A stretch of DNA of 64,000 nucleotides from Porphyra umbilicalis. Its lineage: Eukaryota; Rhodophyta; Bangiophyceae; Bangiales; Bangiaceae. The translations under genes and the position numbers were made by a program. Below are positions 18,749-62,500 of the stretch, one piece after another; position 1 is the stretch's first letter, and each line of letters opens with the position of its first letter. The notes under the pieces are model-generated. The model did not search any database. It was not told where the DNA came from and was given only the letters and a program-made list of their open reading frames with translations. The stretch is from positions 124,001 to 188,000 of the forward strand of contig KV918841.1 of assembly GCA_002049455.2 (NCBI GenBank). Reading direction: 5' to 3'.

Positions 18749-21700
18749 TCAAAAGCCTGGACGCATTGAGCGGCTTGTCCAGGGATAGAAAACGTTGGTG
18801 AAGTAACGGGCGTCACGCCGCTCCGCTGCAGTGATGCGCTTGTTAGCAGGCGTAGCAAACAGTCCTAGCCGGTCGGATAAGTCGAACCAATCGACTTGGA
18901 CGTCCTCCTCGCGGAGGATACGTGTTGCGTCGACCACCTCCAACCCAGGATACTCGTCTGCGGCGCTGTCGAAGTGCCACGTGAGGCGCATGCAACCGAA
19001 GCGAGTAAGAACACACCCTGGGCGGGGGTCGACCCGGCGCATGCGCTGGATGACCACACAGCTTCGGCGAGTGCGCCCCAGGGAGCGAAGCACGAGCCGC
19101 GCGCGACCCCAACACACGGCGCCGTCACGCGCCTCGTAGCGCAAGAAGGAGAACCATGGCTTGCCCATGAAGCTGGCAGCCGCTCGCACGCTCTGCACGG
19201 TGGGCGGCGCGCCCCACTCAAATCGCGCGACGATCCTCGCCGTCCGGTGCACCGTGACCCAGGCATTGTCTGCCAAACCCAGCAATGCTCTGATCTAGGC
19301 AAGGGCCGGGGACAGTCGGAGGTTCCCCACGAACTCCCGCTCGCCGCGGCCGGCAAACGACAGCTGCTCAGTGAGGGTCGGGGGCGCCGTGATGGTGGCT
19401 TCGTCATCGTTGGTTGGGGAGGCCGAGGTAGACGCGCGTGGACTGCAACCAGCATCGGCCTCGACGACCTCGCGCAGCACCGCAGACTGCGCCTCGTCGC
19501 AGCGCATCATTTGCAGCGCGACGGTCGGGCCGCGCTTGTTGCTGCGACGGAACATCCGCTTGCAGCTGCCATGGAGCTTCTCATTCTCGGAGGTGTCCCC
19601 CTCCCATAGGTTGCCTCGGCCCCGCAGCTCTTCATCCATGTGATGGATGATGCGATGCACCTTAGATGTGTTTGTGTGGCCGTACAACATCTGGAGGCAG
19701 TCGACGCCGAGAGCCTTGGCACGCGCGTCCATGCGTTTGATGAGCTCCTCAGGCATGACGGCCGTGTCCGCTACGTTGTCGCCAAAAAAGTCGCCACCAA
19801 GTTGCGCCGTGCGACAAAACAGCTCGAGAATCGCGTCGTGAAGGGGCATATCGCCGAAGACATCCCGGTATCGGTCGGTGGTGACGACATTTGGGCCAGG
19901 TAGCGAGGAGCCGATGCCACGCGACTGGTTCGGCACATCCCCGGCATCGGGGTCATGCGAAAACTCGCTGCCGTCGTCGTCGCTCCCAGCGTGAGACAGC
20001 GGGGCGACCAAAGCGAGTGTGCTGCTGACAGGTGCGACATCATCGCCGTCCATGCCCGACTCGGATGAGGCGGCGGCATCCGCAGGACCCAGGGCACCCG
20101 CCACGATAAACGGCCAATAGGAGCTGAAATGGCGCCAGCTCCGCCCAGTCATTGTGGCCTGCGCGTCCTTCATGGGCACAAAGCACCTGAGAGCCAAGCA
20201 AAGGAGTGGAAAAAGATACTAGGTGAACAAGGTGGCAAGGTTTACAGACGAGGGTCAGATGAGGCCAATGTACACACGCACTACACGCACGGGCGCACAG
20301 CGGTGCCTCCCAAGTCGCTTCGATCCCAGCAGGTTTGCGTGGGAGCTGCTTCCAATGCGGTCAAACGAACGAAGTCAGAGTCTGAGCGAAACATACCCAG
20401 GAGGTGCTGGAGTGGCCTTGCAGTTCCTGCCGAGGTGAAAACCCCGCAGGTTGATGGCGTCCAGTGTGGCGGCTACAGAGCCGAGCCGAGCACCACTGCG
20501 GCCCTCACAAAGGGCCGCCAGGACGTGTGGAAGCCGCTGAGCGAGCAGGCGGAGGAAGCCAAGCTTCCACACGTGCAAGAGGTCGAAAGACACGATGCGA
20601 TAAAGGTCTCGGCATCCCGTCGAGAGGCCGTGAACGGCGCCGAGTGCCGGCACGAACGCCAGAGCACTGTGCTGCTGCCCGAGAGCACGACGACGGCTCC
20701 CGCGGGGGTCCTCAGCACGGACAACCGCAGCAGCCAGCTGCGCGTCGAGGGTGGTGGTAACGTCCCGGTCCACAGCGCGAATGCCCATCAGCGCGCCGCT
20801 TATGCGCTTGTCCTCCATACAGTGCGAGCAAAAAAAGTTGCACCGGTTACCCATCAGTGCCAGCACGTTGCGCTCCTCGACTTGATCGACGACCAGCCCG
20901 ACGACGCGAGGCACCAAGCGCACAGCACCGTGGCCGGCGACCGGTGCCGTGATGCCCGTCTCGCTCGCGCGAATGAGTCGGCGAAGCGACAGGGCGAGAC
21001 AGCGCTGGAAGAGATCGTTCCGGGTGTCGCTGGCGGCGACGCGTGCCGCACTGGTCTTCTCCACGGGCTTGGGTACGTGCTCCATATAACCCACCGTGAC
21101 CCACTGGCCGCCGCCGTCACTCACGTTGATGAACTTAGCTCGAATGGGAAAGATGTAGTTCGCACCCGACCACGACACAAGCGCCTCGTCCGCGTGCAGG
21201 TGGATGCCCATCACCCGCGCGTCCGGCCCGTGCTGCCGCTTCACGTCCCGCTCGTTCAAGAGGTAGATATTACTGTCGAGCGCGTTGCGGCGCACCCGCC
21301 CTTCGTCGTCCCCGTCAAGGTCAATGGCATGCAGGTGGGCCCCCCCATCGTCATCTGCGGCCCGGGCGGCCGCGTCATTCGGGCCAAAAGACACGGTGGT
21401 CGCGGCCGCGAGCTCGTCCAGGCCCGCTTGCAGGATGTCGTGGTAGTAGTATTGGAAAACGCGTTCGCCGACCTCGATTGGCACTTGCTGCCAGTTGCGC
21501 TCCGCAAGGACCCGCTTCACCTCGCGGCGCGTCCCGGTGAGGAATCTGTGCGAGGAGCCGAACGCAGACGTGAACGGGCCGCCCGTGGCAGCGCCGCGCA
21601 CCGCCTCGCGCTCAATCGCGCGCAAGGAACGGGCGTAGCTGACTTGATCGGGCTCGCTCAAGCCGCTGCCGCCTGCGGTCAGCGCAAACAACAAGGCACC

Positions 21701-22621
21701 ACGCAGCGCTGGGGAGTTGAAGCGGCTTGGGCGCGTCGCCCACACAGGGTCAACCACTGGCACCGAGCGGGACGCCTCAGGCAGACGCTCATAGTACGCG
21801 CGGATTCGTGCCGCGGTGCTGCTCACGAAGACGTGCCGCGTCATACCGCCGCCGCCGGCCGCGACTGCGCCAAGGACCGGGTTGAGGTAGTTGTCGACTT
21901 CGTCGAATGCGCAGTACTCGGCGGCCTCGTCTGTTCCCGATGAGTACTCGCCGTCGGCACCATCCCCTGTTTCGTCGTCCGTGTCCAACGCGAGCCGCAC
22001 AATAGACAGCATCACGTCCCCGTCGTGCTCGTGCTCCTCGCCGACGGGGACGCGTCCGTGATTGCCCGCCACGTCGTGTCCCAGGGGGGAAAACACATCG
22101 TCCACCTCACCACCAACCGCGTGGGACACATGCTCGTGAGCGCCAGTGTCGACTTCGTCGTCGATGAGCGGGGGAATCCCACCTTCATCGTCCGACTCGT
22201 AGAACTGCGGAGGCGGCTCGTCGTCTTCCTCCGAGTAGGGGACTAGCGCGGGACGGCCAAAGACGCGGTCTGGCGAGATGGCCGGGAAGAGGTCGTCACC
22301 CGGCGCGTTATCAGCTGCGGTGGCCGCAACCGCATCGGCGGCGGCGGCGTCCGCGTCAACACTGACAGTGAAAAGAGGCACCAACGTGGTCGCGAGCGGG
22401 ACCGGGGCCGGGTCGGAGTCAAGTAGGGGGGGGGGCGCCGACTCGTGCATGCCAACGGTGCCAAAGACGAGGCGTGCCGCCGGCGTGGTGGCGCCTACCA
22501 GCCGGCTTTCACTAGGGTGCGACGTCTGGACGTGGCGCGCAACGTTAGCGGCCGTGGCAAAGGTCGCGGCACAGTAGTCGCACTTGACGAAGGGGCGCGC
22601 ACACGACGACGGGGGCGCCAT
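18749..22621 (-). CDS. Tnp2/Plavaka-like transposase with N-terminal C2H2 finger
   Basis: The start is GCCATGG at 22621. Residues 13-35 form a C2H2/BED-like finger (CDYCAATF...ARHVQTSH). An acidic stretch follows, then the catalytic half: a VVDQ...CNFFCSHC block and FDLLHVWK, matching the D-x-[LM]-H block of Tnp2-type enzymes. The frame continues through a clear 210-bp intron at 20396-20187 (GTATGT...CTCTCAG, phase 2) into CFVPMKD and WRHFSSYWPF. The C-terminal block is HRIIHHMDEE...E..H...KR....N.R. A further in-frame domain runs to 18749 and ends near FYPWTSR. The two last parts share one frame, separated by a single TAG at 19295-19297, so this copy is probably inactive or that base is an error. 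It would cut and paste the element's DNA in the nucleus. About 1,220 residues, which is long for the family. Confidence 0.7.
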
Positions 22622-37334: not shown

Positions 37335-37910
37335 GCGACAGCTTACTCATCCAGCGCCCTTTCCGGCTCGCAGCGCAGTCAGGCAGAGCAGTGCGGTCGT
37401 GTGCGGCAGCGTACGCATCCAGCGCCCTTTCGGGCGCGCAGAGCAGTCGGCAGCCGCACACGAGCGAACGCCTCCTGCTCAAATCAAGTAGGCAGAGCAG
37501 TGCGGTCGTGTGCGGCAGCGTACGCATCCAGCGCCCTTTCGGGCGCGCAGAGCAGTCGGCAGCCGCACACGAGCGAACGCCTCCCGTGCAAATCAAGTAG
37601 GCAGAGCATTGCCGTCGTGTGCGGCAGCGTACGCATCCAGCGCCCTTTCGGGCGCGCAGAGCAGTCGGCAGCCGCACACGAGCGAACGCCTCCCGTGCAA
37701 ATCAAGTAGGCAGAGCATTGCCGTCGTGTGCGGCAGCGTACGCATCCAGCGCCCTTTCGGGCGCGCAGAGCAGTCGGCAGCCGCACACGAGCGAACGCCT
37801 CCCGTGCAAATCAAGTAGGCAGAGCATTGCCGTCGTGTGCGGCAGCGTACGCATCCAGCGCCCTTTCGGGCGCGCAGAGCAGTCGGCAGCCGCGCACGAA
37901 CGAACTCGTC
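37335..37910 (+). repeat. 109-bp tandem repeat with a built-in hairpin, about 5 copies
   Basis: Units start at 37381, 37490, 37599, 37708 and 37817, with a degenerate partial unit before 37381. Each contains GCGCCC-TTTC-GGGCGC (37422-37437 in the first unit), a 6-bp stem with a TTTC loop. The first two complete units carry GCGGTC after the start; the later ones carry GCCGTC. Because 109 is not a multiple of three, frames read through the array cycle through all frames; I do not regard it as coding. Confidence 0.95.
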
Positions 37911-39319: not shown

Positions 39320-39433
39320 AAATAGATTTTTACACACCTGTTGTTTGTTCACCCGCACAGAGCCCACACTCATACGCGACGGACGCCCAGCGACGCCCTG
39401 CTACTGCCGCCGTCGCCGACGTTGCCGCACGTG

Positions 39434-40410
39434 CCACCGACCCACCCAACGACCGCGCGCACCAACCCCCCCCCCACCGACACTCCACCCTTGCCGCCGC
39501 CGCGCCGCGCCGCCGAGGGCGCCGACTGCTCCCCACCCTTGCCGCCGCCCTTGTCGCCACCGCCGAGCCGCGGGCGTCGTCGCCGCCGCCGCGGTGTTGT
39601 CGCACTGCGGCCGTGGCGGTGGCGGCGGCGGCGGTCATCGTGCGGCCGCGCCATGGTGACGCCACGCGGGCGCCGCGGCGTGTGCCGGCGCGGCGGCGAG
39701 GAGCGCGCCGCCGCTCCGGCCGCGCCCCGACACCGCGGGGGTCGTCAGCCCCCCGCCGTGGCCGCGGGGGTGATGCAACCCCCGCGGTCGCTGCCCGTGC
39801 GACCGACCCACCCACCGACCGCACGCACGCACACCCCCCACCGACACTCCACCCTTGCCGCCGCCGCGCCGCGCCGCCGAGGGCGCCGACTGCTCCCCAC
39901 CCTTGCCGCCGCCCTTGTCGCCACCGCCGAGCCGCGGGCGTCGTCGCCGCCGCCGCGGTGTTGTCGCACTGCGGCCGTGGCGGTGGCGGCGGCGGCGGTC
40001 ATCGTGCGGCCGCACCATGGTGACGCCACGCGGGCGCCGCGGCGTGTGCCGGCGCGCCGGCGAGGAGCGCGCCGCCGCTCCGGCCGCGCCCCGCCACCGC
40101 GGGGGTCGTCAGCCCCCCGCCGTGGCCGCGGGGGTGATGCAACCCCCGCGGTCGCTGCCCGTGCGACCGACCCACCCACCGACCGCACGCACGCACACCC
40201 CCCCACCGACACTCCACCCTTGCCGCCGCCGCGCCGCGCCGCCAGGGCGCCGACTGCTCCCCGCCCTTGCCGCCGCCGTTGACGCCGCGCGGGCGGCGCC
40301 ACGGCTGTCGGCGCGGCCGCTGCCGGCGCAGCGCCGATCCCGACTCCCCGCACCACCGCGGGGGTCGGCATCCCCCCGCGGTGGCCGCGGGGGTGCTCCA
40401 CCCCCAGCGG
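39434..40410 (+). repeat. 364-bp GC-rich tandem repeat, about 2.7 copies
   Basis: The word CCATGGTGACGCCACGCGGG occurs at 39651 and again at 40015, exactly 364 bp apart, and the surrounding sequence repeats with few changes. A third, shortened copy runs to about 40410, and a more diverged one to about 40640. Frames on both strands are Arg/Pro/Ala shadows of the repeat. Confidence 0.9.
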
Positions 40411-40856: not shown

Positions 40857-43800
40857 CATTGAAACGGCGACATGCTGCTTTTGTGAAAACAGGGAATTAA
40901 ACTTTGACATGCCCGCAACGTTGCTCTCAATGAGACCTATCAAACGCGCCCAAGAACAGTCCAAACGCATTTGTGTGACCAAAGTTATGTCCGATTTTCA
41001 TCTGCTTACGGGAAGCGTCCGGCTACGAGTGCTCCGGCGGCCGGTGAGACCGCTTCAGCTCGCATAGTCAGAAGCTCCCCCTATGTTTCCCAGGGAGCCA
41101 TGTGGTCCCTGAGCCCGTTTCTGCAGTCAAAAACTGAATCCGAGCACGTCCGGAGCACTAGTGGCCATGTGCATTCGTGTACCGCTACAGCATTGAAACG
41201 GCGACCTGCTGCTTTTGTGAAAACAGGGCATCAAACTCTGCCATGCCCGCAACGTTGCTCTCAATGAGACCTATCAAACGCGCCCAAGAACAGTCCAAAC
41301 GCATTTGTGTGACCAAAGTTATGTCCGATTTTCATCTGCTTACGGGAAGCGTCCGGCTACAAGTGCTCCGTCGGCCGGTGAGACCGCTTCAGCTCGCATA
41401 GTCAGAAGCTCCCCCTATGTTTCCCAGGGAGCCATGTGGTCCCTGAGCCCGCTTCTGCAGTCAAAAACTGAATCCGAGCACGTCCGGAGCACTAGTGGCC
41501 ATGTGCATTCGTGTACCGCTACAGCATTGAAACGGCGACCTGCTGCTTTTGTGAAAACGGGGCATCAAACTCTGATATGCTCGAAACGTTGCTCTCAATG
41601 AGACCTATCAAACGCGCCCAAGAACAGTCCAAACGCATTTGTGTGACCAAAGTTATGTCCGATTTTCATCTGCTTACGGGAAGCGTCCGGCTACAAGTGC
41701 TCCGTCGGCCGGTGAGACCGCTTCAGCTCGCATAGTCAGAAGCTCCCCCTATGTTTCCCAGGGTGCCATGTGGTCCCTGAGCCCGATTCTGCAGTCAAAA
41801 ACTGAATCCGAGCACGTCCGGAGCACTAGTGGCCATGTGCATTCGTGTACCGCTACAGCATTGAAACGGCGACCTGCTGCTTTTGTGAAAACGGGGCATC
41901 AAACTCTGATATGCTCGAAACGTTGCTCTCAATGAGACCTATCAAACGCGCCCAAGAACAGTCCAAACGCATTTGTGTGACCAAAGTTATGTCCGATTTT
42001 CATCTGCTTACGGGAAGCGTCCGGCTGCAAGTGCTCCGTCGGCCGGTGAGACCGCTTCAGCTCGCATAGTCAGAAGCTCCCCCTATGTTTCCCAGGGAGC
42101 CATGTGGTCCCTGAGCCCGTTTCTGCAGTCAAAAACTGAATCCGAGCACGTCCGGAGCACTAGTGGCCATGTGCATTCGTGTACCGCTACAGCATTGAAA
42201 CGGCGACCTGCTGCTTTTGTGAAAACGGGGCATCAAACTCTGATATGCTCGAAACGTTGCTCTCAATGAGACCTATCAAACGCGCCCAAGAACAGTCCAA
42301 ACGCATTTGTGTGACCAAAGTTATGTCCGATTTTCATCTGCTTACGGGAAGCGTCCGGCTACAAGTGCTCCGTCGGCCGGTGAGACCGCTTCAGCTCGCA
42401 TAGTCAGAAGCTCCCCCTATGTTTCCCAGGGAGCCATGTGGTCCCTGAGCCCGTTTCTGCAGTCAAAAACTGAATCCGAGCACGTCCGGAGCACTAGTGG
42501 CCATGTGCATTCGTGTACCGCTACAGCATTGAAACGGCGACCTGCTGCTTTTGTGAAAACGGGGCATCAAACTCTGATATGCTCGAAACGTTGCTCTCAA
42601 TGAGACCTATTAAACGCGCCCAAGAACAGTCCAAACGCATTTGTGTGACCAAAGTTATGTCCGATTTTCATCTGCTTACGGGAAGCGTCCGGCTACAAGT
42701 GCTCCGGCGGCCGGTGAGACCGCTTCAGCTCGCATAGTCAGAAGCTCCCCCTATGTTTCCCAGGGAGCCATGTGGTCCCTGAGCCCGTTTCTGCAGTCAA
42801 AAACTGAATCCGAGCACGTCCGGAGCACTAGTGGCCATGTGCATTCGTGTACCGCTACAGCATTGAAACGGCGACCTGCTGCTTTTGTGAAAACGGGGCA
42901 TCAAACTCTGATATGCTCGAAACGTTGCTCTCAATGAGACCTATCAAACGCGCCCAAGAACAGTCCAAACGCATTTGTGTGACCAAAGTTATGTCCGATT
43001 TTCATCTGCTTACGGGAAGCGTCCGGCTACAAGTGCTCCGTCGGCCGGTGAGACCGCTTCAGCTCGCATAGTCAGAAGCTCCCCCTATGTTTCCCAGGGT
43101 GCCATGTGGTCCCTGAGCCCGTTTCTGCAGTCAAAAACTGAATCCGAGCACGTCCGGAGCACTAGTGGCCATGTGCATTCGTGTACCGCTACAGCATTGA
43201 AACGGCGACCTGCTGCTTTTGTGAAAACGGGGCATCAAACTCTGATATGCTCGAAACGTTGCTCTCAATGAGACCTATCAAACGCGCCCAAGAACAGTCC
43301 AAACGCATTTGTGTGACCAAAGTTATGTCCGATTTTCATCTGCTTACGGGAAGCGTCCGGCTACAAGTGCTCCGTCGGCCGGTGAGACCGCTTCAGCTCG
43401 CATAGTCAGAAGCTCCCCCTATGTTTCCCAGGGAGCCATGTGGTCCCTGAGCCCGCTTCTGCAGTCAAAAACTGAATCCGAGCACGTCCGGAGCACTAGT
43501 GGCCATGTGCATTCGTGTACCGCTACAGCATTGAAACGGCGACCTGCTGCTTTTGTGAAAATGGGGCATCAAACTCTGCCATGCCCGCAACGTTGCTCTC
43601 AATGAGACCTATCAAACGCGCCCAAGAACAGTCCAAACGCATTTGTGTGACCAAAGTTATGTCCGATTTTCATCTGCTTACGGGAAGCGTCCGGCTACAA
43701 GTGCTCCGGCGGCCGGTGAGACCGCTTCAGCTCGCATAGTCAGAAGCTCCCCCTATGTTTCCCAGGGAGCCATGTGGTCCCTGAGCCCGTTTCTGCAGTC

Positions 43801-45480
43801 AAAAACTGAATCCGAGCACGTCCGGAGCACTAGTGGCCATGTGCATTCGTGTACAGCTACAGCATTGAAACGGCGACCTGCTGCTTTTGTGAAAACAGGG
43901 CATCAAACTCTGCCATGCCCGCAACGTTGCTCTCAATGAGACCTATCAAACGCGCCCAAGAACAGTCCAAACGCATTTGTGTGACCAAAGTTATGTCCGA
44001 TTTTCATCTGCTTACGGGAAGCGTCCGGCTACGAGTGCTCCGTCGGCCGGTGAGACCGCTTCAGCTCGCATAGTCAGAAGCTCCCCCTATGTTTCCCAGG
44101 GAGCCATGTGGTCCCTGAGCCCGTTTCTGCAGTCAAAAACTGAATCCGAGCACGTCCGGAGCACTAGTGGCCATGTGCATTCGTGTACCGCTACAGCATT
44201 GAAACGGCGACCTGCTGCTTTTGTGAAAACGGGGCATCAAACTCTGATATGCTCGAAACGTTGCTCTCAATGAGACCTATCAAACGCGCCCAAGAACAGT
44301 CCAAACGCATTTGTGTGACCAAAGTTATGTCCGATTTTCATCTGCTTACGGGAAGCGTCCGGCTACAAGTGCTCCGTCGGCCGGTGAGACCGCTTCAGCT
44401 CGCATAGTCAGAAGCTCCCCCTATGTTTCCCAGGGTGCCATGTGGTCCCTGAGCCCGTTTCTGCAGTCAAAAACTGAATCCGAGCACGTCCGGAGCACTA
44501 GTGGCCATGTGCATTCGTGTACCGCTACAGCATTGAAACGGCGACCTGCTGCTTTTGTGAAAACGGGGCATCAAACTCAGATATGCTCGAAACGTTGCTC
44601 TCAATGAGACCTATTAAACGCGCCCAAGAACAGTCCAAACGCATTTGTGTGACCAAAGTTATGTCCGATTTTCATCTGCTTACGGGAAGCGTCCGGCTAC
44701 AAGTGCTCCGGCGGCCGGTGAGACCGCTTCAGCTCGCATAGTCAGAAGCTCCCCCTATGTTTCCCAGGGTGCCATGTGGTCCCTGAGCCCGTTTATGCAG
44801 TCAAAAATTGAATCCGAGCACGTCCGGAGCACTAGTGGCCATGTGCATTCGTGTACCGCTACAGCATTGAAACGGCGACCTGCTGCTTTTGTGAAAACGG
44901 GGCATCAAACTCTGCCATGCCCGCAACGTTGCTCTCAATGAGACCTATCAAACGCGCCCAAGAACAGTCCAAACGCATTTGTGTGACCAAAGTTATGTCC
45001 GATTTTCATCTGCTTACGGGAAGCGTCCGGCTGCAAGTGCTCCGTCGGCCGGTGAGACCGCTTCAGCTCGCATAGTCAGAAGCTCCCCCTATGTTTCCCA
45101 GGGTGCCATGTGGTCCCTGAGCCCGCTTCTGCAGTCAAAAACTGAATCCGAGCACGTCCGGAGCACTAGTGGCCATGTGCATTCGTGTACCGCTACAGCA
45201 TTGAAACGGCGACCTGCTGCTTTTGTGAAAACGGGGCATCAAACTCTGCCATGCCCGCAACGTTGCTCTCAATGAGACCTATCAAACGCGCCCAAGAACA
45301 GTCCAAACGCATTTGTGTGACCAAAGTTATGTCCGATTTTCATCTGCTTACGGGAAGCGTCCGGCTACAAGTGCTCCGTCGGCCGGTGAGACCGCTTCAG
45401 CTCGCATAGTCAGAAGCTCCCCCTATGTCTCCCAGCGTCAGGTTGGGTCTTTGAGCCCGTTTCTGCACTGTAATTCAAGC
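40857..45480 (+). repeat. 334-bp satellite array, about 14 copies
   Basis: Near-identical monomers recur every 334 bp (for example at 40971, 41305, 41639 through 45313). The first begins partway through and is diverged; the last decays after about 45425. Each monomer contains an inverted pair GCTCCC...GGGAGC around CCCAGGGAGCC. Variable positions include CGTCGG/CGGCGG, GGGAGCC/GGGTGCC and GATATGCTCGAAAC/GCCATGCCCGCAAC. The two ORFs repeated in each monomer begin with TTG or GTG rather than ATG. Tandem arrays of this size often lie in centromeric or subtelomeric heterochromatin. Confidence 0.97.
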
Positions 45481-56248: not shown

Positions 56249-56349
56249 TCAAGGCAGCCGCAAGACGTTCCGCTCCGCCGCCCCCAACCCTCCGTACCAC
56301 GGCACGCGGTGGAGGTGTGGGCCGAGCGCGGCCGCCGCCCCCGCCGCGG
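56249..56349 (-). CDS. last exon piece of a methyltransferase-like gene, left of the CACTA insertion
   Basis: Reading the minus strand from the insertion point in the frame of the 62501-62895 ORF gives an Ala run, then LGPHLHRVPWYGG, LGAAERNVLRLP and a TGA at 56251-56249. That the frame carries through the empty site to a plausible C-terminus is the evidence that both flanks once formed one gene. The first three bases (56347-56349) are the duplicated target CGG. Confidence 0.45.
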
Positions 56350-56392
56350 CCCTACTAGAACATCTAACGAGAAATCCCAAGTTTTATGGCCC
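56350..56392 (+). repeat. left terminal inverted repeat of the CACTA element
   Basis: It begins CCCTACTAGAACATCTAACG and runs into AAATCCCAAGTTTT. Aligned without gaps to the reverse complement of 62455-62497, I count 32 identities and 11 differences. Confidence 0.85.
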
Positions 56393-56559
56393 ATAATACC
56401 AGGTGAAGTGGCACAAAAAACCAGGTTGTGTGGCTCAATATCCCAGGTCGAAGACCTTCACAGCCCTGAAAAAAGGACCTCAAGCTCATGCGGAATACCA
56501 GCTTGCCTGGGATCTTCGGGCATCGCTGGGGCTTAGAATCCCAGGTACAACCTGGGATT
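56377..56559. repeat. left subterminal repeat cluster
   Basis: At least seven copies of (A)TCCCAGGT or close variants in both orientations. One is a perfect 10-bp inverted pair at 56537-56559: AATCCCAGGT, 3-base spacer, then its complement. In En/Spm such motifs are bound by TnpA. Confidence 0.8.
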
Positions 56560-56869
56560 GTATGGACTTTGGTTCGCTCACAGGCATCCACGTTGCATAG
56601 ATGGGTGGCTGAGAGCAATGCTGTCAGACAGCGCAATGGTCCATATTCAAGTATGAGTGCAGGTGTGACTTCACAATCTTACACTGGGATACCTTCAAAG
56701 AATGTTACATATAAGAGTGAAGTACGGTATTACGTACTGGCATATCAGTTTCTGCTGTACGCTGTGTTCGAGTATACTTGACAGCTTGCTATAATAGCAA
56801 TATTCCGTTTAGTCAAGTATTCATTGATTAGACAATGTTGTGAACAGGTCGGATGGTTGTGTTTATTAA

Positions 56870-57891
56870 CTAGCGATGAGAAGCAAAGAAATCCTCGGCC
56901 GACTGGGCACCCGTCGCACTGTCAACGGTTGCGTGATCGCTGGCGTTAGTTCCCGATCTGACCCGTGCAGCCGGTGACGAGGGTCGCACCGACCGATTCG
57001 GCGGCGGTGGCAGCGGCCGTGTTGGCGGCGGTGGCAGCCGCCGTGTCGGCGGCGGTGGCAGCGGCCGTGTCGGCGACGGGAGCGTTGCCCCGCCCGCCGT
57101 CGCCGCCGCGGCCGCCGCCTGCCCGGCCTGCCCCTTCTTTGCGAGCGCCTTGTGATAGGCCGCGCTGTTGTTGGCTACCTTAGACAGTAGACAGCAGGCA
57201 CCCCAGCTCCGAACGCAAACGCCCAGCCGCGGCTCGAACCGCTCAAGGTGCCGGACGGCCACGTCAATGTCCACTCGCGCCTGTGCGCAGAAGGTGACGA
57301 GGGGGTCAAACACCTTAGCGGCCGACTTTGCCAGCCGCTTGATGTGTGTCACGTCCGGCCCAGAGATGTTAAGGACCTGAAAAACTGGCAAGCGGTTGAC
57401 GGCGGCTGCGGGTATCGCCACCGCACGCCGCGCGGCATTTGGGTCCGGGTGAAGATCGAATCCGCACCGGCCGTTCGTGGTGCCGCGGGTCCTGCCCGCC
57501 CCACGTGACCGAGATGGGACGGGCAGAACCACCAGCGGGCGCTCCGAAGAGCCGTTCAAAACCGCCGCAGGCCCAGCAGGGCTCGCCGGAACGGCCGCAG
57601 CCTCGGCGCTGCCGCGCCCGTTCGGGCACGCGGAAGTAGCCCCCGTCGCCGAAGAGCTTGGCGCGCCGGCACCGCGAGAAGAGAGACGCGTTCGCACGGG
57701 GGGCGGGGGCAACGCCTCGCGGGGAGAGGACAGCCGACGATTCGGCGGTGGTGGCGGCGTGGCAACGGCCGCGCGCCGGCGTCCCGAAGTTCGATTCGGC
57801 TGCGCTCGCGGGGGTGACGATGCGTCGTTCGACGCGCGGGGAGCCGCCGCCGGCAGTGCTGCAGCCGCCGCGACGGCGGCGGCCAAATTGC
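56870..57891 (-). CDS. second gene of the CACTA element (TnpA-position), last exon
   Basis: The open frame reads back to about 58069, but a very good 3' splice site (TTTTCTTTCCAG, ending at 57892) lies inside it. I therefore start the exon at 57891 in phase 1; the 5' exon is not identified. The product has an Ala/Pro/Arg-rich first half, an ordered middle (LPVFQVLNISGPDVTHIKRL, then PLVTFCAQARVDIDVAVRHL, about 57230-57380) and a repeated Pro tail (repeats of RPLPPPPT). The stop at 56870 is followed within a few bases by AATAAA on this strand (56862-56867). By position and by analogy with En/Spm it would bind the subterminal repeats; there is no sequence motif to prove it. Confidence 0.55.
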
Positions 57892-58069
57892 CTGGAAAGA
57901 AAACGAAATGGATCGAAGAGAAGGATATCGAGCACAAAGAAACACAACGCAAAGGAAAGCACTCAAGTATTTCGGTCTCGTCAGTCACCATACCAGTGTG
58001 CATTCCCCCCGTATGTACACCATTCTGTGCCGAAAAAAGACAGACGAGGAGGACCGGGTGTCCATACAA

Positions 58070-58655
58070 AGATGGGACAGCATATCACACACATATAACA
58101 CGTGGCCGTACGGACAAAGAGCATAATCACGCTCAGAACGGGGGATGTTGGGGGGGAGTGGGGGGGTGGGGGCAGTGGGTATACATCAGATCCAAAGAAA
58201 CGAACAACACGTACCGCTAGCACCACGCGCTCGCTTGCGGCCGGCCGCCATGTTACGGGAGCTCGGGAAAGGATCGGTCCAGGGGTATCGGGGAAGGAGC
58301 GTCGAGAGTGCGACACAGATGACAGGTGCAAAAGGGGCGGGGAGTGTGCGTGCCTTTGTGAGACGCGACGGTGAAGGCGACGTTGGATGCGACGGGGTGG
58401 TGCCTGCGACTGCGGTGACCGCGTCACTCACACCGTGGTAGTCAGTGTGGCCAGGTGTGCGCTGGCATCGTCTGGGCCGTGGCCAGAATACTCACAGTGC
58501 GCAGGCTCTGAGCGCCCCCCTTCCGTAGAGCGCCCACGAAGCACTGGTGGCGGAAAGCTGCCGCCGGGCGGTGCTGGTGAACGGGCACCCCCGCCAGAGG
58601 CCATTGGAAACCAATGCCAAGTGGTTTGCGTCCTCTTAGCCCACCCCTTCTGGTT
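58070..58655. other. spacer between the two CACTA genes
   Basis: No ORF I can support. In En/Spm the two proteins come from one differentially spliced transcript, so this may be intron or untranslated sequence. It includes a long G-rich stretch (58150-58180) and the palindrome ATTGGAAACCAAT near 58604. Confidence 0.4.
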
Positions 58656-61615
58656 CTACAGGTCCTCAGAAAACGGCTCCCTATTAAACAACACAAAATG
58701 GAGGCCCTCTCTCCCAATTGTGGCGACAACTTCGGCCACGGCGCCGACTGGTACGTATCCGCACGACCCGCCTAGCCCGAGGATACACTCAATCCCGTAC
58801 TTGGTCGCCGCGTAACCATACCGGCCGGGGCAATCCTTAGCCGACTTAACGCGCTCTACGTAGGCGAAGGCCATTGCTTGGCCATCAATGAACACGGCCG
58901 CGTAGTGTAAGATGGCCCCAAACGTTGAGACTGAGCGCTCCCCCACGGAACCGTCGGGGAGGAAGAAATCTTCTCGGGAGTTGATCCGTACCAAGTAGTT
59001 GCGGCGCCGGCGCTTGTCGCAGTCCGACCCGACAGGCCTAGATCCGCCAATTTTTCCGGACGCCAGCTTAGCTCGGTAGTACTTCTTCGCCAAAACCTGA
59101 AGAGGCACTTCGTCGGCGTTCTCTTGGATCAGCACTGCCCGCATACTGGAAAGCTCCGCCCCTTCAAGGCCCACCGGCTCGCTCCTAGGTGGTAGCAGCG
59201 CGCAGTCAGCGCCGACATCCTGAGGTACCTTCAGGCTGCCGCGAGGAAGACCGGGCGCCGTCCAACGTTTCTTAGTTGTTTCTGCCCATTCGGTGGGTAA
59301 GTATTGCTGGCCAAAGGAAGTAATGAGGTCGGCCTTGCATTTGCGCGTGACATTCTTGACGAGGGTGGCGTGCGGTCTTGAACTGGAGCGGATCAGCTTT
59401 CCCAGCGTCCCAACTTTCCGCTCCATCGGAAACTGCCAGACGACCCAGGCTGGGCCGCACGCGCGGAGCAGCGGAACAATGTCTAGAAGAGAAGAAATTG
59501 TAGACAGGCAGAGCGGTAACCGCTCGGCCGATCCGCGGTATACCTTATCGTAGTAGTTGGTCAAGAAGTACTTGAGATCGTTGTCAATCGACTGGATATC
59601 CGCCTCAGACACGCCCCTAGGTCGGAATAGCAGACGGCAGGCGCGGCTTAGTGCCATGAAGATCTTGTAGAAGGCGCTTGGAATCCGACTTGCCAGCAGT
59701 ACTTCTCCGCTGCACAGGATAAAGTGCATCCAGTCGACCGCCTTGAAGGACTTTTGATGGATGTCGATATTTCTCAGAGATCTGGCCTGGGCCAGGGGCA
59801 CCGTCTGGCGCGCCTCCCGCAGCTCCCGGCCGATGAGGGCCACCGTCGCCTTCGGTAAGAAGTAGTCTTCGTCCTTCTTGTTGTTTACCAGCTTAAGCCC
59901 AGCGAAGAGCTTCCACAGGTGCGGCACAACGTTTAGGAGCACCAAGTGCATGGTATCGTAGGGGGCGGCGGTAGGACCCATTGTCCATAAGTGTTTCAGG
60001 TGCGGGTAGGCGGTGCGCATTGCTGGGCTGGGCGCGAAGAACAGGGAGTAGCCCTTGACGCCACTCTTCTGCTGCAGCCTTGTCTGGTACGCGACCGATC
60101 TGCCTTCTGCACGCGCGTCCTCCACTTCAGCCGCACTTACGGCGATACTTGCGGCCGTGCGTCGCGGTGCAATGCAGTCACGTACTTTGAACAGAGACTT
60201 GCCGCTTAGATCCTTAGGCGGGAAGTAGACATGGCTACTTGCAGGAGCGTAGATTCCCTGGAAGAGGCGAAAACGGTTGTAAATGTAGCTGCTGACGCCA
60301 GTTAGCTGACAGAGCTTGTCGCCGCCCGGCTGATCCGTCGTAAAGTTGAGCACTCCGGCCCTTAACACGACTGGGGTTGGCGAGTTGGCTACTATTAGAC
60401 CGGGAACACCCTTGGCCAGCTCGTTTAACTCCGCCGCAATGGGGTGTAGAAACGATTCGAGGTCGGCAGGTTGTCTTGGCCCAGGCGTTACGACCAGCAG
60501 TAGCTGATACTTCATGCGCGTCCGTTGGTTAGGGCTCAGGCTCAGGGGTGTGACCGTTACCGGCCAGCCTTCGAACCCGTTCTGCCGAAAGAACTGAAAG
60601 CCGTCGGTTCCACAGTTAACTGGTACGAAAGGGCCGTGATCAAGTAGTCCTGCATCGCGGTAGTGACGGAAGTTCGAGCTGTGGGGGTAGTCGTGGACCC
60701 CGTCGGCCACTTCATCCACAGCCTTGCGCGCCGCAGCCATGTTCTCCATCATTGACTTCCCAATTATGGGGTCGCTGAGAAGGTGAGCCAACCAGGATGT
60801 CAAGGACCAGTACGTGACCTGTTTGGCCGGCTTGCCGTTGGCTTTGAAGCGCGGTGATCCGCAAGCGTCGCACGTGGTCTGTTGCGCGCGCGTATGGGTG
60901 AAGGCCACGCACCCGTGGACGCAACAGTCGACTAACCTTGTCTCCAAGTTGACGCTTGCATCGACGAAACGCTCCATAAGGTGGGGCGTGCAGTACGTGG
61001 CCGCGGAGGAGCTTAATTGAAGTAGATCCGCAATCGACGCTTGCGTCAAATCGTGTTGAACTGTAAAGGCATGCAGCGCAAGGTCTGCTCTGCAATCCTT
61101 AAACTGGCCCACCGTCAGACGCACTTCGTTCGTGCTGACGGTTGGTTGGTAAATCGGGATTGGTGGAGCCCCAATCTGATCTTCTGGCTCCGGATCAGCG
61201 ATGAAATCCGGTGGTGGCACGTCGTTTGACCCGTCTGATCCGTCTGATCCGTCGTTTGACGTGGAATCGCTCGATGCCACACTTGCGTCCGGCGTTTCGT
61301 CCGCATCGCATCGGCGCCGGTCCGCCTCGACGGCCGCCTGTGCGCTGGCGCCGTCATCCCCTGGCGGTTGTCCACCCTGGCCGCCCGACGGCACCGAAAG
61401 CCCGTCGCCCGCTGATGGTCCCCCCCCCCACCATTGGGGAGTAGGGCATTTGCTGGACCGCCACCGTGGCCGCCATGCTCCAGACGACGGCGCTTTTCAC
61501 GCTGTCGGTGGATAAAAAAAGTTGACCGACACACCGAGTTGGGACCACTGCGGCCGTCGTCCGTGCAGGATGGGCAGTAACAGGCGTACCGCTCGCCGAC
61601 GCCAGAGGGTACCAT
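58656..61615 (-). CDS. Tnp2 (TnpD-like) CACTA transposase
   Basis: The start is ACCATGG on the minus strand at 61615. Residues 10-37 form the usual N-terminal Cys/His finger (CYCPSC...STFFIHR). An acidic linker follows, then a second zinc ribbon (CCVHGCVAF...CDACGSPRFKANGK), YWSLTSWLAHLLSDP, the first catalytic Asp region (CGTDGFQFF), YDTMHLVLLNVVPHLW (the D-x-M-H block) and WQFPMERKVG. This is the Transposase_21 family order, and at about 986 residues the length is normal. It cuts the element at its inverted repeats in the nucleus. One frame change coincides with the C10 run at 61420-61429, between the acidic linker halves. It may be a sequencing slip; everything else is open. Confidence 0.88.
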
Positions 61616-62348
61616 GGCCACTGCTGGTAGGGGGTGGAGGTTGGGATGGGGGGGGGAGCTGGAGCAGCAGGTCGATGACGAGGCGGCGAAGAAGGAGCAC
61701 CGGCGGTGGCAATGCGAGTGTCGATGGCTGATGGAACACATCGTCGGTAAGGCCATGGGAGACTCTTTTACAGGCAAACAGGGCGAAGCAGTGCCCTATC
61801 AAATGGCAGGATTGCACGGCTGACAGTGGAATGCTCTGGAAGCTTCCATCGGCATCTAGATCTCAACGGTGGAAGGCCAGACTGGAAGCAGCTCGCTCGT
61901 CATAAGCCTCAGGTGTTTCGACCAGGTGGCCACAAGTCTCACTTTTCCCTTCCAGCACGCACACGAGAGGGGCTCAATGCATCGCTGTGTTGGCCACCTT
62001 CCACCCGCTGCACCCCCCCCCCTGCTCCAGTCTGACAGCTCGAGGCATGCTGGTCCTGATGTCCCCACATGCCGGAATGGTCGCTTGGCGGCGGCCCAGA
62101 GCGCCGCCGGCCCGCGTCACCGGACCTTCTGTATCGGGGCACAAGCCCAGCCGGGGATACCCTCCCTCCCTGAAGCCTGACGTGTCACTACGCCGCGGTG
62201 GCGATGGGGCAGGCCGAAGGTCGGGAATGTATGAGGACACGGCCACTTCACAATTTGTTCCGAGCTGGCGGGGATTGTTGGCGTGCGAAGCGGCATGAGC
62301 AGAGAGGCTGAGGATCCCATCCAGGCCGATCCGCGACATTGGACTCGA
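61616..62348. other. 5' region of the CACTA element, no gene
   Basis: Upstream region of the transposase, expected to hold its promoter. I see no TATA box on the minus strand. Open frames here are shadows. Confidence 0.4.
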
Positions 62349-62475
62349 AATCCCAGGTCGATCCGCACGGGCCAGGTCGCCGTTGCACGGAATCCCAGGT
62401 AAATCGCTCCATGGAAGTGGGTTTGGCTCGGTATCCCAGGCGACCTGGGATTTCGAGGCAGAAAACCTGGGATTT
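62349..62475. repeat. right subterminal repeat cluster
   Basis: ATCCCAGGT occurs at about 62350 and 62391. An 8-bp inverted pair ATCCCAGG...CCTGGGAT lies at 62433-62451, and ACCTGGGAT again at about 62465. The same word forms the left cluster, 6 kb away. Confidence 0.8.
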
Positions 62476-62497
62476 TCGGTCAAATTTTCTTGTAGGG
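62455..62497 (-). repeat. right terminal inverted repeat of the CACTA element
   Basis: Read inward from the right end: CCCTACAAGAAAATTTGACC, then GAAAATCCCAGG. Followed directly by the CGG target duplication. Confidence 0.88.
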
Positions 62498-62500
62498 CGG

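Follow-up and report, generated by a model that had tools for sequence, protein, structure and literature searches.

A CACTA-like DNA transposon, complete at both ends, in the red alga Porphyra umbilicalis

INTRODUCTION

A zinc-binding C(2)C/H(3-4)H site has been reported for the transposases of CACTA, Mirage, Chapaev, Plavaka and Transib elements and for RAG1, and in the CMC/Transib (CMCT) group the C(2)C and H(3-4)H parts lie between the second Asp and the last Glu (PMC12730594, in the portion of the article available to us). Plant CACTA elements pair conserved ends with diverging subterminal repeats (excerpt of PMC2613891), the same contrast that we describe below for a red alga. EnSpm elements have already been recorded in red algae, according to the part of PMC12477816 that cites the Bostrychia genome paper. 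Listings from an open-access library showed no description of a red-algal CACTA element with the ends reported here.

Here we analyse an element in a 64,000-nucleotide stretch of Porphyra umbilicalis DNA (the window; contig C81:124001-188000), which we compared with the whole assembly of 83.8 Mb in 665 contigs. We identify it with confidence as a CACTA/EnSpm (tnp2) DNA transposon of the cut-and-paste kind, residing in a red alga. Coordinates below are those of the window unless a contig is named.

RESULTS

Element boundaries and sister copies

The element, its flanking duplication and its termini are as follows.

56350..62497, unstranded, 6148 bp: CACTA-like DNA transposon with both ends complete, delimited by sister copies, unrelated flanks and paralogous empty sites
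56347..56349, plus strand: left copy of the target duplication, CGG; present as a single copy (CAG) at the empty site in C7
62498..62500, plus strand: right copy of the target duplication, CGG, from the sequence, the sister copies and the empty site
56350..56361, plus strand: left (A) terminus, CCCTACTAGAAC, part of a 30-bp end repeated across the assembly
62485..62497, minus strand: right (B) terminus, CCCTACAAGAAAA (13 bp), with 54 exact occurrences in the assembly
58617..58618, unstranded: deletion junction, where 210 bp found in the 16 sisters are missing; lies in the spacer separating the genes, close to a short CCAATG repeat

Read on the forward strand, the window copy starts with CCCTACTAGAAC at 56350 and ends with TTTTCTTGTAGGG at 62497. 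The initial annotation had described a whole CACTA transposon with these ends, CGG outside both of them and 43-bp terminal inverted repeats. The ends and the flanking CGG are borne out by 16 sister copies and by the junctions of empty sites. The inverted repeats are present but imperfect, with 32 of 43 positions identical (74%), and 11/13, 23/30 and 42/60 identities over shorter and longer stretches. Likewise, the word 'whole' holds for the two intact ends but not for the interior, which lacks 210 bp and has an interrupted transposase frame. The 30-bp left end is found exactly at 17 places in the assembly and with 1-3 mismatches at four more, while reversed controls for this end and for the right terminus gave no occurrence. 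The 11-mer CCCTACAAGAA is less telling by itself (91 occurrences in the assembly versus 45 for its control).

The 16 sisters are 6356-6359 bp long, have both ends in common with the window copy and are 99.5-99.9% identical to it. All 17 copies align end to end, and the 210 bp missing from the window copy are present in every sister. Because the window copy is deleted in the spacer and interrupted in its transposase frame, it is probably reliant on its sisters and, if mobile at all, most likely uses their proteins. Among 6144 ungapped columns 101 are variable, 85 of them as singletons, and the mean pairwise difference is 0.24%; by shared changes the window copy and L010 are sisters. The set looks like a recent, star-like burst, with recent movement in the alga.

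A 3-bp duplication of varying sequence flanks 16 of the 17 core copies (the window copy and its 16 sisters), with a chance 3-mer match at about 3%; flank matches of 4 or 5 bp occur in 0/17 and one of 6 bp in 1/17. The search for further copies with the same ends and 3-bp duplications, proposed in the initial annotation, was thus successful. The CGG match of the window copy is little proof by itself, since its left flank is CGG-rich. In the wider set with both ends defined the duplication is found in 25 of 27 copies, or 24 of 26 when L038, whose ends were chosen with the duplication in view, is left out. It is absent at L021 and L037, and L021, the sole core exception, sits in a local tandem duplication. 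Flanks of up to 600 bp from 27 copies were also compared for homology reaching past 56350 or 62497, and none was found between copies save for the duplicated pair L021/L022. The left and right flanks of L025 share stretches of 72-75% identity with each other.

The region C320:51527-66535, which holds L021, L022 and L056, is a tandem duplication with a unit of about 7.5 kb and a breakpoint exactly at the right end of one of the transposon copies. The breakpoint may be such as aberrant (alternative-end) transposition would leave, or it may be an assembly error.

Empty sites

To locate unoccupied sites, we took out one of the two duplicates at each of 20 copies, joined the flanks and looked for the joined sequence in this genome; the sites recovered are paralogues, not alleles. 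Unoccupied paralogous sites that align across the junction were found for at least four of the 20 copies, a lower bound since 40 of 316 candidates were scored. The joined flanks of the window copy align to the site in C7 over 695 columns with no gap and 91.8% identity, and to more distant sites in C222 (87%) and in C401 and C318 (83%). L009 is matched by C568 at 98.5%, with identity across all 120 bp around the junction, L011 by C36 and C33 (98.7% and 98.0%) and L036 by C83 (86.8%). These junctions agree with the element boundaries given above. Peptides from the joined flanks have an uninterrupted Pfam domain across the junction in two of four cases, Lipase_3 for L010 and adh_short for L040; those of L012 and L028 matched no Pfam family. 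The L010 copy sits in a host class 3 lipase gene and the L040 copy in a host short-chain dehydrogenase gene.

Subterminal repeats

Two clusters of 9-mers lie just inside the termini.

56374..56558, unstranded: left cluster, six ATCCCAGGT-like 9-mers with up to one mismatch
62350..62473, unstranded: right cluster, five ATCCCAGGT-like 9-mers with up to one mismatch

The clusters, already noticed in the initial annotation, are real and far above expectation from dinucleotide shuffles. The left 300 bp contain six ATCCCAGGT-like 9-mers, compared with a mean of 0.12 and a maximum of 2 in 500 shuffles, and the right 200 bp contain five (shuffles: mean 0.09, maximum 1). Exact ATCCCAGGT occurs seven times in the element, always close to the ends, and not once elsewhere in the window; allowing one mismatch gives 11 in the element versus five in the other ~57.9 kb. 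The element thus has the closely spaced direct and inverted subterminal repeats by which CACTA/EnSpm elements are recognised.

Families in the genome

A protein search with the transposase returned at least 54 rows of 51-100% identity from the 50 scored of 334 candidates. Among the 52 rows used, which omit two short rows and include two rows each from C41 and C216, 41 have an outward-facing CCCTACAAGAA no more than 3 kb upstream of the transposase (40 of them at 591-1126 bp), and the other 11 have no terminus within that distance. For the 99% copy at C5 the nearest terminus is 2.9 kb upstream. Besides family 1, to which the window copy belongs, we distinguish family 2 (71% transposase identity), with the end CCCTACAAGAAAAAT, and family 3 (51%), with the end CCCTACAAGAAAT[AG]TACC. 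CCCTACAAGAAA begins both ends in C29, C63, C163, C238 and C21 and single ends in C139, C245 and C66. CCCTACAAGAAA did not turn up in print as a transposon end, and the papers found to contain the string deal, judging by their titles and opening abstract lines, with subjects other than transposons. In six further end pairs the 3-bp duplication matches in four (that in C163 inside a run of C). It does not match at C63 or at C77, where the two ends come from different families. L042 (C77:117922-119719, about 1.8 kb) is bounded by one family-2-like and one family-3-like end, with no shared 3-bp duplication; it is a hybrid or two remnants.

The 9-mer changes with the family. In one copy of each, it is ATCCCAGGT in family 1 (seven exact), ATCCCGGGT in family 2 (five exact, plus one ATCCCAGGT) and ATCGCGGGT in family 3 (six exact), and the exact 9-mers are in each copy confined to within 350 bp of the ends. 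CCCTACAAGAA stays fixed while the 9-mer switches. The terminal ~11 bp and the transposase are frozen, and the 9-mer and gene 2 (below) drift between families.

In every family examined the terminal core reads CCCTA and not CACTA. The statement that the right terminus differs by one base from plant CACTACAAGAAAA is correct when set against the published form in the accessible part of PMC7210773. Of the accompanying claim that the terminus is deeply conserved, we can uphold the part that concerns this genome, in which families with transposase identities as low as 51% keep CCCTACAAGAA. An exact match to plant CACTACAAGAAAA occurs once in the assembly, in the plastid contig C665. This contig carries 10 of 11 phycobilisome-family matches, and its phycocyanin beta chain is closest to entry 6kgx, a red-algal protein. 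Sites with CACTACCAGAAAA at C55:56354-56366 and C512:15654-15666 may mark the termini of elements that have a genuine CACTA core.

The transposase

The larger of the two genes has the following features.

58656..61615, minus strand: transposase gene, ATG at 61615-61613 and stop at 58656-58658; frame interrupted in the window copy
60312..60617, minus strand: match to Transposase_21 (PF02992), residues 260-361 of the 912-aa frame, which include the candidate catalytic Asp264 and Asp354
61420..61429, minus strand: homopolymer run that breaks the transposase frame of the window copy and of 11 sisters; the frame is uninterrupted in 5 of the 17 copies

An open frame of 912 aa occupies 58656-61394 on the minus strand, and we placed the start upstream of it, at the methionine where conservation with family 2 begins. 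The window protein matches Transposase_21 at 30.6 bits, narrowly over the cut-off of 28.6, its only Pfam match above cut-off, and the element thereby has the tnp2/Transposase_21 transposase of CACTA/EnSpm elements. At E up to 1 the domain is found in all four aligned members, the family 2 member scoring 26.0 bits, below the cut-off, and DUF4218 is found weakly in three of the four (best E 0.043). In both family 3 copies examined, L039 and L040, the frame is likewise lost at a G-run, in the region of the protein where it is interrupted in family 1. The shared interruption could reflect slippage, an assembly error or a programmed frameshift; the homopolymer interruption does not follow the grouping of copies by common substitutions, so that slippage and assembly error look alike.

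For the transposase, dN/dS between families 1 and 2 comes to about 0.10, and for gene 2 to 0.38, which indicates purifying selection; both values are rough because synonymous sites are near saturation. Comparison of family 1 with the decayed copy L037 gave 0.73, and synonymous change relative to family 3 is saturated. Asp264, Asp354 and Glu658, chosen through known motifs, are invariant in the four aligned transposases, and we take them to be candidate acidic catalytic residues.

A profile search of solved structures with the transposase returned one meaningless match (E 1.6), and NCBIfam returned chance matches only. Among viral contigs 35 stretches matched a pattern and none was confirmed as a relative, and phages gave no match; we therefore rejected a viral or phage origin. 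A conserved gene on the opposite strand was likewise rejected, because the protein matches fall mostly in transposase antisense and the spacer itself is poorly conserved.

The zinc motif

Neither C(2)C nor H(3-4)H is found anywhere after Asp264 in the window transposase. Across families 1-3 there is no conserved pair, with single unshared instances in families 2 and 3. The signature of the CMCT group is thus missing, and for this reason we file the element as CACTA-like. The zinc motif has likely been lost from the transposase of families 1-3, as far as the alignments indicate. In all four transposase sequences Arg376 and Asp638 are unchanged, and their spacing is that expected for ligands. 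When the transposase alignment was compared by profile with a Plavaka-like protein in the window, the two did not align (probability 0.2%), so that the individual ligands of the lost site are placed by spacing only. A whole-genome Transposase_21 search with at least 150 matches (150 scored of 176 candidates) is in line with the missing motif: the rows of families 1-3 end at profile position 145 or before, and many others reach 153-201.

Many Transposase_21 matches (profile 84-161 and beyond) look like lineages other than families 1-3. The Plavaka-like transposase lies at 20375-22621 on the minus strand, with a further frame at 19295-20197 (minus). It scores 20.6 bits against PF18759, below the cut-off of 26.3, and contains CSHC, with HRIIHH in the downstream frame; at least 87 matching rows were found in the genome from 59 scored of 550 candidates. 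The window also carries a satellite array at 40857-45435 (334-bp unit, 13.7 copies, 98% matches) and other arrays at 37381-37905 (109 bp) and 39430-40286 (364 bp).

Gene 2

Downstream of the transposase lies a second gene with one predicted intron.

58215..58251, minus strand: exon 1, with ATG and basic N-terminus; start, phase and GTACG donor are common to families 2 and 3
57892..58214, minus strand: intron inferred from sequence, GTACGT...CAG
56870..57891, minus strand: exon 2, with a conserved stretch of ~85 aa and an FFAS-type C-terminus

The predicted spliced product is 352 aa long in the window copy and in the 16 sisters. Families 2 and 3 also have a gene 2 with an ATG, a basic peptide, the GTACG donor in the same phase, the ~85-aa stretch and the FFAS-type C-terminus; no acceptor pattern was seen in L028 (family 2), and L036 encodes a truncated product. 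All three families therefore carry a second gene in the position of TNPA in CACTA/EnSpm elements. No Pfam family was matched by the open frame that contains exon 2, and the case for a TNPA-like role of the product is for that reason made from its position, inferred splicing, basic N-terminus and faster change, which together suggest such a role.

DISCUSSION

We propose that the transposase would recognise the CCCTAC[A/T]AGAA end and cut, that the gene 2 product would act as plant TNPA does, attaching to the 9-mers and so pairing the ends of the element, and that the excised element would insert at a 3-nt staggered cut. A non-mobile segmental repeat or duplication, with inverted ends present by chance, could be read from the CGG-rich left flank of the window copy and from the C320 pair with its common flanks. 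It is refuted by the different insertion sites of the other copies, their different flanks and 3-bp duplications and the empty sites, and we regard it as almost certainly wrong. Recent gain of a plant CACTA element through horizontal transfer would account for a terminal 13-mer one base off the plant form; it is very improbable given that the Transposase_21 score is 30.6 bits only and that families at 51-74% identity have the same ends in this genome. That spread of identities makes the lineage look old here, and deep conservation of the terminus with plants is plausible.

Membership in another CACTA-Mirage-Chapaev-Transib lineage (Plavaka, ESTA, Lanisha or animal TRC elements with CCC ends) deserves more weight, although we still consider it unlikely. 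The missing C(2)C/H(3-4)H motif speaks for it, as do the CCC ends of animal TRC elements, such as a beetle end that begins CCCTAGTAG (available part of PMC1636069). However, TRC elements are described in the same excerpt with 2-bp direct repeats, and here CCC is combined with a duplication of 3 bp. Plavaka elements end in TGT..ACA or CATCA..TGATG (PMC12730594, as excerpted), different from the ends here, and the transposase has no PF18759 match at E up to 1. The right end has 12 of the 13 bases of the plant terminus, and Transposase_21 is the sole Pfam match above cut-off, which also argues against another lineage. We therefore retain the CACTA/EnSpm type. A fuller reading is that a long-lived red-algal CACTA-like lineage lost the zinc site, possibly replacing it with conserved charged residues (Arg376 and Asp638), kept the plant-type terminus minus one base and changed its 9-mer and gene 2 together; we offer this combination tentatively, as something that could be so but that we would not bet on.

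Overall, these results show the plant terminal signature, save for a single base, in a red alga as well. With its several families and clean empty sites, this genome separates the frozen parts of the element from the drifting ones. Two questions become testable, namely whether CACTA ends were inherited from before the split of plants and red algae, and whether the zinc site is dispensable for a transposase with relatives in the RAG1 group.

Among known systems, TRC elements of animals and fungi (SmTRC1 and relatives) resemble this element in Transposase_21 and CCC ends, with CCCTA in Tribolium, and the remainder of their end is dissimilar (in the part of PMC1636069 at hand). Fungal EnSpm/Plavaka elements belong to the same broad group, and fungal EnSpm families make 3-bp duplications; in contrast to the red-algal element, they have CAC..GTG, TGT..ACA or CATCA..TGATG ends and C(2)C/H(3-4)H is present, so far as the excerpt of PMC12730594 describes them. 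The algal EnSpm elements of Ectocarpus and red algae are, in the accessible text of PMC12477816, giants with accessory genes, whereas the element here has two genes in 6.1-6.4 kb. Plant CACTA/En-Spm elements differ in having CAC where the red-algal end has CCC and in carrying C(2)C/H(3-4)H in the transposase, and the red-algal gene 2 is set apart by its single inferred intron and an exon-2 frame that matches no Pfam family. Yet the likeness to the plant elements (maize En/Spm, soybean Tgmt*, lettuce LsC1) is extensive: 12 of 13 terminal bases agree, judged against the published CACTACAAGAAAA and the lettuce query CACTACTNGAAA, and both kinds have a 3-bp duplication, direct and inverted subterminal repeats, a tnp2-type transposase and a second, faster-changing gene.
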